Assembly: GCA_011526365.1 (NCBI GenBank)
Contig: WTIO01000016.1
Location: 1-64,000, forward strand
Direction: 5' to 3'
Length of the DNA stretch: 64,000 bases
From: Flavobacteriales bacterium
GTDB lineage: Bacteria > Bacteroidota > Bacteroidia > Flavobacteriales > Flavobacteriaceae
In this document: positions 22,470 through 44,837 of the stretch, in pieces
Numbering within the stretch: position 1 is the stretch's first letter
Layout of the letters: each line of letters starts with the position of its first letter
The notes under the pieces: model-generated
The model's input: only the letters and a program-made list of their open reading frames with translations
What the model was told of the DNA's origin: nothing
The model's database searches: none
Made by a program: the position numbers and the translations under genes

Positions 22470-22812
22470 TCAGAGTGTATTAAATGCGGCTTCAAGGTCT
22501 TGAATCAAGTCCACTATGGCTTCTAGCCCTACAGATTAGCGTAGTGGCAATTGCTGCGGTACCCGATGCAGTAACTACAGCAGCAGTACCTCCTTCTAGG
22601 GTGACTAAACGCTGTTCTAACTCATCATTAGTGGGATTGTTCAAACGGGTGTAAATGTACCCTGACTCGGCCAATAAAAATAAATTGGCTGCATGATCTG
22701 TGTCCTTAAGCACATAGGATGTTGTTTGATTGATGGGAACTGCTTGGGTGTTTTGTGATTCTTCGGGATCGTAACCAGCGTGCAGCGCTAAGGTTGATTT
22801 TTTGGGATTCAT
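22470..22812 (-). pseudogene. metY: metY remnant: O-acetylhomoserine sulfhydrylase with large internal deletion
   Basis: The first ~90 codons read as a normal N-terminus of O-acetylhomoserine sulfhydrylase (STLALHAGYDPEE, TTSYVLKDTDHAANLF, YTRLNNPTNDELEQRL, TASGTAAIATTL). The sequence then jumps, near 22540, directly to the last ~20 codons of the same family in another frame: VGLEAIVDLIQDLEAAF and a TGA at 22470-22472. About 300 codons, including the PLP-binding Lys, are missing. The surviving frame ends early at 22492 after a short tail of unrelated residues. The start overlaps the metK stop as ATGA, preserving operon coupling. It cannot encode an active enzyme. Confidence 0.85.
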
Positions 22813-24065
22813 AATTTAAAGGCTTTCTTAATTGGGGTTACATAATCTAATTTTTCCCAGGTAAAGAGTTCCACATCGAGTGTTACTTTCCCGTTGTATG
22901 GCGACTCAAAAACTTTGGTTATGGTTTTTGGACTGCGGCCCATGTGACCATAGGCGGCAGTTTCAAAATAAATGGGGTTACGCAGTTTTAAACGAGTTTC
23001 AATCCCAAAGGGACTTAAATCAAAAAGCTGTTGAATGACAGCAGCAATCTCTGTATCGGTCTTATCTACTTTTACTGTTCCAAAGGTGTTTACAAAAACA
23101 GAGGTAGGTTGGGCCACCCCAATAGCGTAACTCAATTGCACCAGCATTTCGTCTGCTACTCCTGCAGCTACCATGTTTTTTGCAATATGTCGGGAGGCAT
23201 AAGCCGCACTTCGATCTACCTTGCTAGGATCTTTTCCACTAAAAGCACCGCCGCCATGTCCACCCTTTCCGCCATAGGTATCTACAATAATTTTACGCCC
23301 TGTTAGGCCGGTATCCCCATGGGGACCACCGATTACAAATTTTCCGGTTGGGTTAATATGATAGATTATTGCATCATCAAACAAGGCCTGAAGTGCCTCT
23401 GGCAGCTGTGCTTTAACACGAGGAATTAAGATGCTAACCATATCGGCTTTGATTTTTTCGAGCATGGCTTGATCATTGTCATCAAAAGGATCGTGTTGGG
23501 TAGAAATCACTATGGTATCTATCCGCTGTGGTCGGTGATTTTCGTCATAAGCAATGGTGACCTGCGATTTTGCATCAGGGCGCAGGTAGGTGATGTCTTT
23601 GTTTTCACGTCGTAAGACTGCAAGCTCCTTAAGCAAACGGTGAGAAATATCGAGTGCTAAGGGCATGTAGTCCTCGGTTTCGTTATTGGCATAACCAAAC
23701 ATTAGGCCCTGATCCCCTGCACCCTGTTCTTTCTTTTCTTTTCTGTCTACCCCTTGATTTATATCGGGGGACTGTTCGTGAATAAGTGACACCACACCAC
23801 AGGAATCTCCGCTAAACTGATAGGCCCCACGAGTATAGCCAATCGTATTGATTGTTTTGCGAGCAATGTCTTGTACATCTAAATAGGTATTACTTTTTAC
23901 TTCTCCTGCCAACACGACTTGCCCTGTAGTCACAAGGGTTTCACAAGCAACTTTACTTTCCGGGTCAAAAGCTAAAAAATTGTCTAAAAGGGCGTCACTA
24001 ATTTGATCCGCTACCTTATCTGGATGGCCTTCACTAACAGATTCTGAGGTAAACAAATAGGTCAT
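22809..24065 (-). CDS. metK: S-adenosylmethionine synthetase
   Basis: Makes SAM from methionine and ATP. 418 residues. Visible: [21 protein letters not shown] at the N-terminus (ATP site), [10 protein letters not shown] (methionine loop) near residue 118, [16 protein letters not shown] and [19 protein letters not shown] (phosphate-binding loop). First gene of the methionine operon and directly behind the SAM-II riboswitch, so its product is the ligand of its own leader. Confidence 0.98.
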
Positions 24066-24070
24066 TTATA

Positions 24071-24113
24071 AATTGCTTTGTGGTGGGATCTGACGTAGCG
24101 TCTCAAAGCAATT
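24071..24113 (-). promoter_or_regulatory. Inverted repeat covering the metK start region (putative expression platform)
   Basis: AATTGCTTTG (minus strand, 24113-24104) and CAAAGCAATT (24080-24071) are a perfect 10-base inverted repeat with a 23-base loop, ending 5 bases before the metK ATG. Folding would hide the initiation region. The left arm can alternatively pair with AAAGCA (24121-24116), part of the 3' strand of the SAM-II aptamer, giving two exclusive folds. Confidence 0.5.
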
Positions 24114-24166
24114 ACTGCTTTAGCATTTTTTTTTCGAGGTTGCAATCAGTCAAATCCCTCCTCGTT
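24114..24166 (-). promoter_or_regulatory. SAM-II riboswitch aptamer
   Basis: On the minus strand the segment has all recognisable SAM-II elements in order: P1 stem CGAGG (24164-24160) with CCTCG (24139-24135), an enclosed conserved stretch GATTTGACTGATTGCA, an A-rich linker, and the conserved 3' strand TGCTAAAGC that forms the pseudoknot. SAM-II is a known SAM-sensing class of Alphaproteobacteria and Bacteroidota, placed before methionine and SAM genes. Here it precedes metK, the head of the methionine operon, fitting repression by SAM. Confidence 0.85.
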
Positions 24167-24172
24167 TAAAGT

Positions 24173-40729: not shown

Positions 40730-40760
40730 TTGTTTATAACAAAAAAATTTCAGCTTAAAG

Positions 40761-40791
40761 TTTGTTTTTTTGTGCAGGAGAACTAATTTAG
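40761..40791 (+). promoter_or_regulatory. Candidate promoter of the Phe/Tyr operon
   Basis: TTTG (40761-40764), 19-base spacer, TAATTTAG (40784-40791; one mismatch to TAnnTTTG). The expected start of transcription is only a few bases before the leader-peptide ATG at 40799, implying an almost leaderless leader peptide. Confidence 0.42.
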
Positions 40792-40798
40792 CACCCTG

Positions 40799-40852
40799 AT
40801 GAAATCAAATAACACGTATTATCAAAGCTTCTTTTACTTCTACACCAGTTAG
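40799..40852 (+). CDS. Phe/Tyr leader peptide
   Basis: A 17-codon ORF reading MKSNNTYYQSFFYFYTS and TAG. Seven of its residues are Phe (3) or Tyr (4), five of them consecutive (FFYFY, 40829-40843). It sits directly before a terminator and the operon for Phe and Tyr synthesis, the arrangement of a ribosome-mediated attenuator such as the enterobacterial pheA leader. It was found by reading the gap, not by homology. The bias toward exactly the two end products makes chance unlikely. Confidence 0.8.
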   Translation: MKSNNTYYQSFFYFYTS

Positions 40853-40855
40853 AAG

Positions 40856-40899
40856 CAGGGCTTTATAATACCTTTTCAATAAGAATAATTTGAGTCCTG
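40856..40899 (+). promoter_or_regulatory. Antiterminator pairing of the Phe/Tyr attenuator
   Basis: CAGGGCT (40856-40862) can pair with AGTCCTG (40893-40899), the left arm of the terminator: seven pairs, one of them G-U. The segment begins 4 bases after the leader stop codon. A ribosome at the stop would cover it, while one stalled in the Phe/Tyr codons would leave it free. The pairing is inferred from sequence only. Confidence 0.6.
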
Positions 40900-40920
40900 A
40901 AATTTCAGGACTTTTTTTTT
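40893..40920 (+). terminator. Attenuator terminator before pheA
   Basis: AGTCCTGAAATTTCAGGACT (40893-40912) is a perfect 20-base palindrome forming a strong hairpin, followed by an unbroken T tract to 40920. It lies between the leader peptide and the pheA start at 40924, only 3 bases away, so it must be bypassed for operon expression. Confidence 0.88.
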
Positions 40921-40923
40921 GTA

Positions 40924-41751
40924 ATGAAAAAAATAGGCATACAAGGGATAAAAGGTTCTTTCCATCATGAGGTGGCTGAACTACTTTATAAAGAGACTTC
41001 TTTTGAAGTTATCCCTTTTCACACCTTTGATGAACTTGCTAAAGCTGTCGTTAATGGCTCCATTGCTGAAGCCGTAATGGCCATAGAAAATTCTATTGCG
41101 GGCTCCATTTTACCCAATTATGCACTTTTAGACCGCCACGATTTGGCCATTGTTGGAGAACATCATTTGGGAATACACCACCAATTAATGTGTTTGCCCA
41201 ATCAAAACCTGGCACAGCTACAAGAAGTGCACTCCCACCCTATGGCATTGCTTCAATGTGCGCGCTTTTTTGATGCACACCCCCACATACGCTTAGTGGA
41301 GGCTTTTGATACCGCTGCTATGGCAAAGGAAATTATGGAGAAACAACTCCACGGAGTTGGGGCAATTGCCAGCATACAAGCGGCAACACTCTACGAACTA
41401 AATATTGTAGCTCACAGCATACAAACCATACAAGACAATGTCACACGATTTGTGAGGGTTACCCAGCAACAGCATGTAAAAGAAAACCAGGAGGCTAGCA
41501 AGGCGGCACTTAAATTTATACTCGATCACCAAAGAGGGAGTTTGGCCACAGTACTAAATGTAATGAGTGACTGCCAACTGAATCTTACAAAAATTCAATC
41601 CCTCCCGGTAATTGAAACCCCAGGGAAATACGCCTTCTTTGTGGATGTTACCTTTGACAGCATAGCACAATATGAAAAAGCAGCAGCCGTTTTAAAAATT
41701 ATGGCACAACAATTTAAAGTATTAGGAGTTTATAAAAACGGCCAACGATGA
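40924..41751 (+). CDS. pheA: Prephenate dehydratase
   Basis: Converts prephenate to phenylpyruvate, the Phe branch. 275 residues. Catalytic part: GIQGIKGSFHHEVA at the N-terminus, AVMAIENSIAGSILPNY (ENS motif near residue 59), and the TxRF-equivalent DNVTRFVRV near 176. An ACT regulatory domain follows from about 192 (ALKFILDHQRGSLATVLNVM, LTKIQSLPV), so Phe may also inhibit the enzyme directly. No chorismate mutase part is fused here; that domain sits on the DAHP synthase at the end of the operon. Overlaps the aminotransferase start by 4 bases. Confidence 0.96.
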   Translation: MKKIGIQGIKGSFHHEVAELLYKETSFEVIPFHTFDELAKAVVNGSIAEAVMAIENSIAGSILPNYALLDRHDLAIVGEHHLGIHHQLMCLPNQNLAQLQEVHSHPMALLQCARFFDAHPHIRLVEAFDTAAMAKEIMEKQLHGVGAIASIQAATLYELNIVAHSIQTIQDNVTRFVRVTQQQHVKENQEASKAALKFILDHQRGSLATVLNVMSDCQLNLTKIQSLPVIETPGKYAFFVDVTFDSIAQYEKAAAVLKIMAQQFKVLGVYKNGQR

Positions 41752-42893
41752 GTATTCCAGCACAACGATTAGCAACGGTTCAAGAGTACTACTTCTCAAA
41801 AAAACTACGAGAAGTAGGCCAGCGCATTGCTGCCGGTCAAGAGATTATCAATATGGGCATTGGCAGCCCCGATTTGGCACCTCCTGAAGGAGTGGTAGCT
41901 GCCCTTCAAGCCGGATTTTCTCACCCTAAGGCACATCAATACCAAAGCTATCAGGGGCTCCCAGAATTACGGGAAGCCATAGCACATTTTTACCATTCCC
42001 ATTTTAAGGTAACCCTAAATCCAAACACACAAGTACTTCCGCTTATGGGGTCCAAGGAAGGGATTATGCATCTGTCCATGGCTTTTTTAAATCCTGGAGA
42101 TCAAGTGTTGCTCCCCAATCCTGGTTACCCCACCTATGCTGCAGTCACCAAACTGGTAGAGGCTGAAGCCATCAATTATCCGCTAACAGCAGCCACCAAC
42201 TGGCAGCCAGACATGAACTATTTAGAAGCCTTAGACACTTCTAAAATTAAATTAATGTGGTTGAACTATCCACACATGCCCACAGGTACCAAAGCTCAAG
42301 CTGGACTATTTAAATCTTTAGTGGACTGGGCAAAAAGAAATGAGGTGCTGTTAATTAATGACAACCCCTACAGTTTTATTCTTAATGATGCCCCACAGAG
42401 TATCCTGCAAACCCCCGGGGCTCTAGATACCGCAATTGAATTTAATTCATTGAGTAAAACCTTCAATATGGCGGGTTGGCGCGTGGGGATGGCCCTGGGC
42501 CACGAACGTTTTATTACTGACCTATTAAAAGTAAAAAGCAATATGGATTCGGGGATGTTTTACGGCATCCAAAAAGGGGCTGTTGCGGCCTTACATGCAA
42601 AAGCAAACTGGTTTACGCAACTCAACACCACCTATACCAACAGAAAAAAAGTACTGCTGCAATTAATTGAAAAACTCGGGCTTAGTACCGCCGCAGATCA
42701 AGTAGGGCTCTTCCTTTGGGCTAAACTCCCGGAAGGAGCAGCTTCGGCCGAAGAATACATCGACACCTTGTTAGACGAAAAACACATTTTTATTGCCCCA
42801 GGAACCATTTTTGGGAGTGAAGGTGAAGGCTATGTTCGCTTTTCACTTTGTCTTGACGAAGCCACCATTGAAAAAGCACTTACACGATTATGA
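41748..42893 (+). CDS. Class I aminotransferase of the Phe/Tyr operon
   Basis: 381 residues, fold-type I. Visible: INMGIGSPDLAPP, YQSYQGLPELREAI, LNYPHMPTGTKA (variant of the NPTG motif), INDNPYSFI with the PLP Asp, and the Schiff-base Lys in FNSLSKTFNMAGWRVGMALG near residue 233. Some relatives are called LL-diaminopimelate aminotransferase, but its place between pheA and tyrA argues for transamination of phenylpyruvate and hydroxyphenylpyruvate (or prephenate). Start and stop overlap the neighbours by 4 bases each. Confidence 0.85.
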   Translation: MSIPAQRLATVQEYYFSKKLREVGQRIAAGQEIINMGIGSPDLAPPEGVVAALQAGFSHPKAHQYQSYQGLPELREAIAHFYHSHFKVTLNPNTQVLPLMGSKEGIMHLSMAFLNPGDQVLLPNPGYPTYAAVTKLVEAEAINYPLTAATNWQPDMNYLEALDTSKIKLMWLNYPHMPTGTKAQAGLFKSLVDWAKRNEVLLINDNPYSFILNDAPQSILQTPGALDTAIEFNSLSKTFNMAGWRVGMALGHERFITDLLKVKSNMDSGMFYGIQKGAVAALHAKANWFTQLNTTYTNRKKVLLQLIEKLGLSTAADQVGLFLWAKLPEGAASAEEYIDTLLDEKHIFIAPGTIFGSEGEGYVRFSLCLDEATIEKALTRL

Positions 42894-43765
42894 AACACGT
42901 AGGTATTGTTGGACTTGGACTTATAGGAGGCTCCCTAGCCCTAAATGCAAAAAAACACTTTGCCAACTGCATTACCTATGGTACAGATTTAGATTCTACT
43001 CACCTAAAAGAAGCCCAAGAATTGGGGTGGATCGACAAGGAATTAACAACCGCTAATTTCCCGCAACTCAATCTTTTACTGCTGGCAATTCCAGTGGATG
43101 CACTCCAAGAACAACTCGCAAACTACCTCGATCTCTTAGGTCCGCAAGGACTACTCATTGATTTTGGATCTACCAAGGCCGCTTTGTGCCAGCAGCTTAA
43201 AAATCATCCCAAGCGCCACCAATACCTAGCCACTCACCCCATTGCAGGAACTGAATTTTCTGGACCCCAAGCAGCTTTTACAAGCCTTTTTGAACACAAA
43301 ACACAAATTCTTTGTGAAACCGAAAAAACTGCTGCCGACCTCCTCGATCATGCCGTAAGCTGGTTTAAAAAAATGAAGATGCAATTGATAGTGATGGATC
43401 CCGAGGAACACGACAAACACATTGCCTATGTGTCCCACCTTTCGCACATTAGCTCCTTTATGCTAGGAAAAACGGTGCTGGAAAAAGAAACTGACCAATC
43501 TACCATTTTTGAGCTAGCCGGAAGTGGGTTTGAATCTACCGTTCGTTTGGCTAAAAGTTCTCCAGAAATGTGGACCCCTATCTTTAAAGTAAACAAGCCC
43601 TACATATTAGAAACCTTAAAAGAATACATCAATAACCTTAAAAACTTTCAAAACTTAATTGAAGACGATAACTTTGACGCGGTTTTTCAAGAAATGAAAA
43701 CGATCAATTCAATCCGTGGAGTTTTGGAAGGAATAACCAACAAAAATTCAACTTATGGAAAATAA
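42890..43765 (+). CDS. tyrA: Prephenate dehydrogenase
   Basis: Oxidative decarboxylation of prephenate to 4-hydroxyphenylpyruvate, the Tyr branch. 291 residues. NAD-binding GIVGLGLIGGSLALNAKK at the N-terminus, LAIPVDALQE, FGSTKAAL, the catalytic His in THPIAGTEFSG near residue 114, and HDKHIAYVSHLSHISSFML near 182-200. An arogenate enzyme cannot be excluded. The stop overlaps the DAHP synthase start by 11 bases. Confidence 0.95.
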   Translation: MKHVGIVGLGLIGGSLALNAKKHFANCITYGTDLDSTHLKEAQELGWIDKELTTANFPQLNLLLLAIPVDALQEQLANYLDLLGPQGLLIDFGSTKAALCQQLKNHPKRHQYLATHPIAGTEFSGPQAAFTSLFEHKTQILCETEKTAADLLDHAVSWFKKMKMQLIVMDPEEHDKHIAYVSHLSHISSFMLGKTVLEKETDQSTIFELAGSGFESTVRLAKSSPEMWTPIFKVNKPYILETLKEYINNLKNFQNLIEDDNFDAVFQEMKTINSIRGVLEGITNKNSTYGK

Positions 43766-44837
43766 CCCCACCATGCGCGAATGGATAAATGCCTTTGGCT
43801 TAGATCACCCTCTTGTAATTGCAGGACCCTGTAGCGCCGAAACCGAAGAACAAGTAATCAAAATTGCACACGAACTCAAGGATACTGATGTGTCCGTTTA
43901 TCGTGCCGGTATTTGGAAACCCCGAACCCGCCCAGGAATGTTTGAAGGGGTGGGCGCCATTGGACTAAAATGGCTGGCCAAAGTAAAAGAAGAAACGGGG
44001 CTAATGATTGCTACCGAAGTCGCCAACGCCAATCATGTGAAACTGGCTTTGGATTACGACGTGGATGTATTGTGGATTGGTGCACGATCTACTGTAAGTC
44101 CTTTTATTGTTCAAGAAATTGCCGACGCACTTGAGGGAACAGATAAAATTGTTTTGGTAAAAAACCCTGTTAACCCCGATTTGGCGCTATGGCTAGGAGG
44201 TATTGAACGTTTGTACAGTGCAAACATCAAAAAACTCGGTGTCATCCACCGTGGGTTTTCTACCTATGATAAATCGAAGTACCGTAACAATCCCGAGTGG
44301 CAAATTCCTATTGAGCTGCAAAACCGCTTCCCCGATTTACCCCTTATTTGCGACCCATCACATATTGCCGGACGTCGTGATTTGATTTTTGACCTAAGTC
44401 AAACCGCACTGGATTTAAATTTCGATGGCCTTATGATTGAATCCCACTGGGATCCAAACAACGCTTGGAGTGATGCCAAACAGCAAGTAACGCCAACCCG
44501 TTTGGTGGAAATTATGAAAGATTTAAAAATTCGAAAAGAAACTACTGAAGAGGCGAATTTCCAAAATCAGTTGCAACAATTGCGTACCCAAATTGATGTT
44601 GCCGATCAAAATCTTTTAGATATACTGGGCAAGCGTATGAAAGTAGCCGAAGAAATCGGACTCCTAAAAAAGAAAAACAACGTAGCGGTATTGCAAAGTA
44701 AGCGCTGGAATGAAATTTTAGGGAAAATGATCCTCGATGGTCAAGAACGCGATTTAGGAGAGGAATTTATTCTACGCCTGTTTAAAGCTATTCACCAAGA
44801 ATCCATCAATCACCAGGAACACATTCTAAAAAATTAG
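43755..44837 (+). CDS. Bifunctional DAHP synthase / chorismate mutase
   Basis: 360 residues with two enzymes of aromatic synthesis. Residues ~1-260: type I-beta (KDO8P synthase-like) DAHP synthase with VIAGPCSAE near 20, the AGIWKPRTRPGMFEG loop, LWIGARSTVSPF, KNPVNPDL, and CDPSHIAGRR with a metal residue. Residues ~275-360: AroQ-type chorismate mutase, helical, with LRTQIDVADQNLLDILGKRM and VAEEIGLLKKK. In related Bacteroidota and Bacillus enzymes such a mutase domain carries feedback inhibition by chorismate or prephenate. Last gene of the operon, giving committed entry plus the branch step under Phe/Tyr attenuation. Confidence 0.94.
   Translation: MENNPTMREWINAFGLDHPLVIAGPCSAETEEQVIKIAHELKDTDVSVYRAGIWKPRTRPGMFEGVGAIGLKWLAKVKEETGLMIATEVANANHVKLALDYDVDVLWIGARSTVSPFIVQEIADALEGTDKIVLVKNPVNPDLALWLGGIERLYSANIKKLGVIHRGFSTYDKSKYRNNPEWQIPIELQNRFPDLPLICDPSHIAGRRDLIFDLSQTALDLNFDGLMIESHWDPNNAWSDAKQQVTPTRLVEIMKDLKIRKETTEEANFQNQLQQLRTQIDVADQNLLDILGKRMKVAEEIGLLKKKNNVAVLQSKRWNEILGKMILDGQERDLGEEFILRLFKAIHQESINHQEHILKN

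Follow-up and report, generated by a model that had tools for sequence, protein, structure and literature searches.

The region directly upstream of pheA in a Flavobacteriales bacterium is, with high probability, a ribosome-mediated transcription attenuator of the trp/phe type which senses both phenylalanine and tyrosine. It lies in a stretch of 64,000 nucleotides (assembly GCA_011526365.1, contig WTIO01000016.1, positions 1 to 64,000 of the forward strand), hereafter called the window. A Phe/Tyr attenuator had been proposed at this site in a preliminary description. Its core is upheld by conservation, compensatory changes and simulation of the ribosome footprint, but the placement of the antiterminator by the stop codon had to be corrected, and the remark that no pause hairpin is needed found no support.

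Anatomy of the pheA leader in the window

A short ORF rich in codons for the products of the operon is located between the promoter and the first gene, and an intrinsic terminator precedes that gene (Table 1). Direct reading of the sequence bears out the ORF, the motif CAGGGCT and the palindrome with its T tract, each where the preliminary description had placed it. The ORF has 17 codons, three for Phe and four for Tyr, at codons 7, 8, 11, 12, 13, 14 and 15; a Trp codon is absent from the window leader. CAGGGCT, the antiterminator core, starts three bases past the end of the stop codon and can pair with AGTCCTG (40893–40899), the left arm of the terminator, over 7 bases including one G.U (2:3 pairing), or over 8 bases if U40863.G40892 is counted. 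The 20 bases AGTCCTGAAATTTCAGGACT (40893–40912) form a perfect palindrome, after which T runs up to 40920. Behind the terminator, the ORFs after pheA overlap head to tail; the aminotransferase gene is the next gene on the same strand after pheA in 109 of 116 relatives.

Table 1. Features of the pheA leader and of the operon behind it, in positions of the window
Feature	Position (strand)	Basis or remark
TTTG, possible −33 promoter element	40761..40764 (+)	Putative; 19 bases upstream of −7 box
TAATTTAG, flavobacterial −7 promoter box	40784..40791 (+)	Motif TAnnTT[A/T]G in 169 of 194 relatives
Leader peptide ORF MKSNNTYYQSFFYFYTS	40799..40852 (+)	ATG 40799, TAG 40850–40852; sequence, relatives
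Segment 1, GUAUUAU-C-AAAGC, over Tyr codons 7 and 8	40816..40828 (+)	Minimum-energy fold pairing; equivalent helix in relatives
Segment 2: antiterminator core CAGGGCT (40856–40862) and 1:2 partner GCUUUAUAAUAC (40860–40871)	40856..40871 (+)	Covariation with segment 3
Intrinsic terminator hairpin; segment 3 = 40893–40899, segment 4 = 40906–40912	40892..40913 (+)	Sequence, compensatory stem changes
Terminator T tract	40912..40920 (+)	Sequence
pheA, prephenate dehydratase	40924..41751 (+)	PF00800, 3e-52
Class I/II aminotransferase	41748..42893 (+)	PF00155
tyrA, prephenate dehydrogenase	42890..43765 (+)	NF006307 above cut-off
DAHP synthase fused to chorismate mutase	43755..44837 (+)	PF00793 and PF01817

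The arrangement of leader and terminator in the window is far beyond chance: among 3000 dinucleotide shuffles of 40730–40923, an equally aromatic leader appeared 30 times, an equally good terminator 6 times, and both together never. The leader RNA of the window folds 4.1 sd below shuffles.

From the anatomy, conservation, covariation, geometry and predicted folds reported here, we infer how translation of the leader ORF, stalling, termination and read-through would proceed in the cell. Transcription would start just ahead of the leader ORF, with a ribosome trailing the polymerase. If charged Phe-tRNA or Tyr-tRNA is scarce, the ribosome would stall on one of the seven aromatic codons and leave CAGGGCT, just past its leading edge, free to pair with AGTCCTG. 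This pairing would bar the terminator, and read-through into pheA, the aminotransferase gene, tyrA and the gene for DAHP synthase/chorismate mutase would follow. If Phe and Tyr are plentiful, the ribosome would pass Tyr15 toward the nearby stop codon and cover CAGGGCT, and the terminator would end transcription. A hairpin between segments 1 and 2 (1:2) is probably responsible for the default state, and it may also make the polymerase pause.

Conservation in the family

We gathered 214 pheA loci from relatives chosen by kinship, an even draw across the family, some order-level relatives and 80 named genomes. They comprise 202 distinct pheA upstream regions, nearly all from Flavobacteriaceae. 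An automatic test for an ATG-started, aromatic-rich ORF of 8–45 codons together with a terminator was passed by 194 of the 202. Among the eight failures, a leader and a terminator are nevertheless visible in three (L030, L059, L153). In another, L014 of genome G015, the attenuator is found more than 500 nt upstream of pheA behind a repeat insertion; its apparent absence is an artefact of the 400-nt upstream limit, as repeats separate the attenuator from the gene. Several repeats of about 125 bases, inserted between attenuator and pheA, are seen at about 230–640 of locus L297 of the same genome.

In the relatives, the aromatic run is kept in one frame, and one and the same position may carry Phe in one leader and Tyr in another. 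At least two Phe and at least two Tyr codons are present in 190 of 191 leaders. A covariance model of the attenuator, built from 32 diverse members, gave one convincing match per genome, always directly upstream of pheA, and no convincing match in G024, a relative without detected pheA. On inspection, ordinary terminators also accounted for the one additional match (E 2.6e-4) and for a further weak one; the genomes concerned are G011, with an apparent second copy, and G043.

Covariation of antiterminator and terminator

Across the relatives, the antiterminator core covaries with the terminator arm in at least five sequence classes (CGAGAC/GTCTCG, CGGGAC/GTCCCG, CAGGAC/GTCCTG, AGGATT/ATCCTG and CGGGAT/ATCCCG), and in one distant family GAGCGGTC is matched by GACCGCTC. 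When cores and arms were compared in a cross table, every antiterminator class scored best against the arms of its own class. On the alignment, 77% of the cells of the 2:3 helix are paired, compared with 23–43% when the helix is slid, and 19 cells are changed on both sides. The terminator stem likewise carries two-sided compensatory changes among relatives. The antiterminator pairing and the terminator exclude each other, and this pairing is conserved by compensatory change. The preliminary description would have been refuted by a lack of conservation of the ORF or of the pairing in close relatives; both proved to be conserved.

RNAalifold recovered the terminator as the sole common structure of the relatives. 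The antiterminator was missed in part because MAFFT shifts it by two columns in one clade, and class-wise pairing was used for the antiterminator in place of RNAalifold.

Spacing and simulated ribosome position

Counted from the first base of the last aromatic codon, the antiterminator of most members begins 12–16 nt downstream (median 14 nt; 15 in the window), whereas its distance from the stop codon ranges from about −20 to +8 across relatives. The preliminary description had tied the antiterminator to the stop codon; what relatives fix is the spacing from the last aromatic codon.

To simulate translation, a ribosome footprint was masked codon by codon and the RNA was folded as it stands just before segment 4 is made, so that thermodynamics stands in for what is a kinetic process. 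The predicted sequestration of segment 3 is 0.71–0.77 with the ribosome on codons of the aromatic run and drops to 0.44 one codon past the run and to 0.32 two codons past it. The window gave 0.88 on the aromatic codons, 0.32 at the stop codon, three codons on from the run, and 0.61 without a ribosome. Since segment 3 is partly sequestered without a ribosome, the untranslated state is predicted to be off less distinctly than it is in E. coli trp. Masked folding thus reproduces the expected geometry, in which a stall on the control codons frees the antiterminator and passage masks it. With the leading edge set anywhere from 9 to 13 nt, this drop occurs no more than about two codons away from the last aromatic codon; it is thus the aromatic run that acts as the ruler, not the stop codon.

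The predicted 1:2 hairpin

The minimum-energy fold of the window contains a predicted 1:2 helix of 12 bp with one bulge (40816–40828 with 40860–40871). In 191 relatives, the 1:2 helix has −18.4 kcal/mol, against −10.9 kcal/mol with shuffled partners, and lies within the top rank of 30 shuffles in 77%. When partners were swapped, the own partner was overall the best of 26 in 29% of cases, where 4% is expected, in favour of coevolution; for the window alone, its helix was no better than those with swapped partners. The coevolution signal of 1:2 is modest and weaker than that of 2:3. On these predicted folds, a 1:2 hairpin is a probable part of the attenuator, and the view that no pause hairpin is needed finds no support, given the 12-bp helix and its equivalents in most relatives.

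These results also bear on a variant of the same attenuator, in which the stop codon sets the placement and the 1:2 hairpin plays no part. It suits the window, where a ribosome at the stop codon would cover CAGGGCT three bases further on, but it is improbable, as the distance from the stop codon drifts among relatives while that from the last aromatic codon does not, and as most relatives have 1:2 helices stronger than shuffled ones.

Other possible roles of the terminator hairpin

The hairpin might instead mainly control translation of pheA and not transcription. Its stem is indeed close to the pheA start codon, 10 nt away in the window and 18 nt at the median of relatives; yet the gap is 39 nt at the upper quartile, 106 nt at most and more than 500 nt in G015, and the long T tract is invariant. 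We consider this reading very unlikely as a replacement for attenuation; control of pheA translation by the hairpin may add to it. A ligand- or protein-binding 5′ element (riboswitch, T-box-like element or repressor site) that uses the terminator, with the ORF being incidental, can practically be dismissed: although a terminator stands ahead of the operon and sequestration of segment 3 does not require a ribosome, no Rfam family matches, the common structure from RNAalifold is confined to the terminator, and the aromatic codons stay in one frame with Phe/Tyr interchange and have parallels in Trp and His leaders.

Promoter and translation signals

A sigma-70 promoter scan of the window gave nothing useful; the flavobacterial box fits instead. 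This −7 box spans −12 to −5 (PMC9723704; PMC6847099), and from this published position we place the predicted transcript start at about 40796, 3 nt ahead of the leader ATG. The −33 element is only weakly conserved in flavobacteria (PMC6847099). The predicted 5′ UTR of 3 nt is unusually short and among the shortest of the leader set. Within at most 60 nt upstream of the leader, TAnnTT[A/T]G occurs in 169 of 194 relatives (shuffled, 20 ± 4), usually in the form TACTTTAGC.

Bacteroidia lack Shine-Dalgarno initiation. An A at −3, which is a flavobacterial initiation signal (PMC6847099), is found in 74% of the leaders and, like the promoter box, indirectly favours a translated leader and starvation-dependent read-through. 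The window leader has C at this position, which, together with its very short predicted 5′ UTR, counts against this reading.

Sibling leaders and the Trp codon

The genome that contains the window has the Trp leader MLKTQKNIWWWNANQC and a terminator ahead of trpE (G000:C73, locus L287), and the GTG-started His leader MKNLHVHTHSLVLAQAR (HVHTH) and a terminator ahead of hisG (G000:C71, locus L274). Relatives likewise have WWW leaders before trpE and HHHH before hisG. The leader code therefore follows the operon within one genome, an observation that is difficult to account for unless ribosomes stall.

A Trp codon is present in 101 of 194 pheA leaders; 100 Trp codons are inside the read-through zone, with a mean predicted sequestration of 0.73. 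One may tentatively imagine a Bacteroidia-wide ancestral attenuator which integrates Phe, Tyr and Trp, with its switch set by the spacing from the last aromatic codon, and a loss of the Trp codon in the lineage of the window, but we hold this extension to be rather doubtful. The Trp codon would let many of these leaders read all three aromatic amino acids; the operon behind the attenuator in the window includes DAHP synthase. The Trp codons are suggestive only, since the relatives are not independent and the Trp codon is also part of a paired stretch.

Distribution beyond the family

The element was found in most of the class-level Bacteroidia loci examined, e.g., MKLFNTYYFGYFYYFSKSRG. It was also detected in L233, L237 and L238, loci whose genomes are assigned to other classes within the phylum. 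There, aromatic leaders with matching antiterminators precede a Bacteroidia-like pheA, and horizontal transfer of the gene together with its attenuator is possible. We did not find the element at L248–L263, 16 loci that are more distant and have a divergent pheA. In L242, a tandem pair of aromatic leader-plus-terminator units is located ahead of one pheA.

Relation to known attenuators

Enterobacterial pheA and pheST leaders consist of a short ORF with codons for the operon's amino acid, an antiterminator and a terminator. The enterobacterial Phe leader works alike but uses Phe codons only, while Phe and Tyr codons are used here. In E. coli trpL, too, a few bases separate the stop codon from the start of segment 2, and the thr and ilv leaders of E. 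coli also read more than one amino acid. The trp, thr and ilv leaders share the four-segment anatomy of 1:2, 2:3 and 3:4 pairings (model in PMC1183508). In contrast to them, the leaders described here read other amino acids, have a flavobacterial promoter box and an A-rich initiation context and, in most relatives, carry the antiterminator inside the last codons of the ORF.

Attenuation as such is a classical mechanism and not a new idea for Flavobacteriaceae. A transcriptome study of Flavobacterium psychrophilum from 2021 gives strong clues to leader-peptide attenuation before amino-acid operons, and lists a conserved 5′ element without Rfam match upstream of pheA in this species and other Flavobacteriaceae (PMC9723704). 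Gene, bacterial family and lack of an Rfam match agree with our element. Our analysis adds the anatomy with its codons and alternative pairing, evidence of covariation, a spacing measured from the last aromatic codon, the frequent Trp codon and the class-wide range; anatomy, codons, alternative pairing and a range beyond the family are not part of the main text of that study. Our literature searches found no mixed Phe/Tyr leader, and no trp leaders in Bacteroidetes. Leader-peptide attenuation is known mainly from Proteobacteria and Actinobacteria, with some cases in Firmicutes (PMC2965389). An attenuator in Bacteroidia would imply a coupling of ribosome and polymerase that is close enough to permit this kind of control in the class, and the approximately 200 natural variants lend themselves to tests of the tuning of ribosome position and antiterminator spacing.

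No Rfam family matches the window at the pheA leader, and a riboswitch or another known RNA family was rejected for this site on that account. Among the Rfam leaders, the enterobacterial Phe leader included, none matches the window up to E = 10; the Phe leader is similar in function, but not a detectable homolog. The attenuator family is a possible addition to Rfam. Elsewhere in the window, a SAM-II riboswitch at 24110–24169 (−) scored 80.8 bits, against a cut-off of 44; it lies a short way upstream of an S-adenosylmethionine synthase ORF (22809–24065, −).
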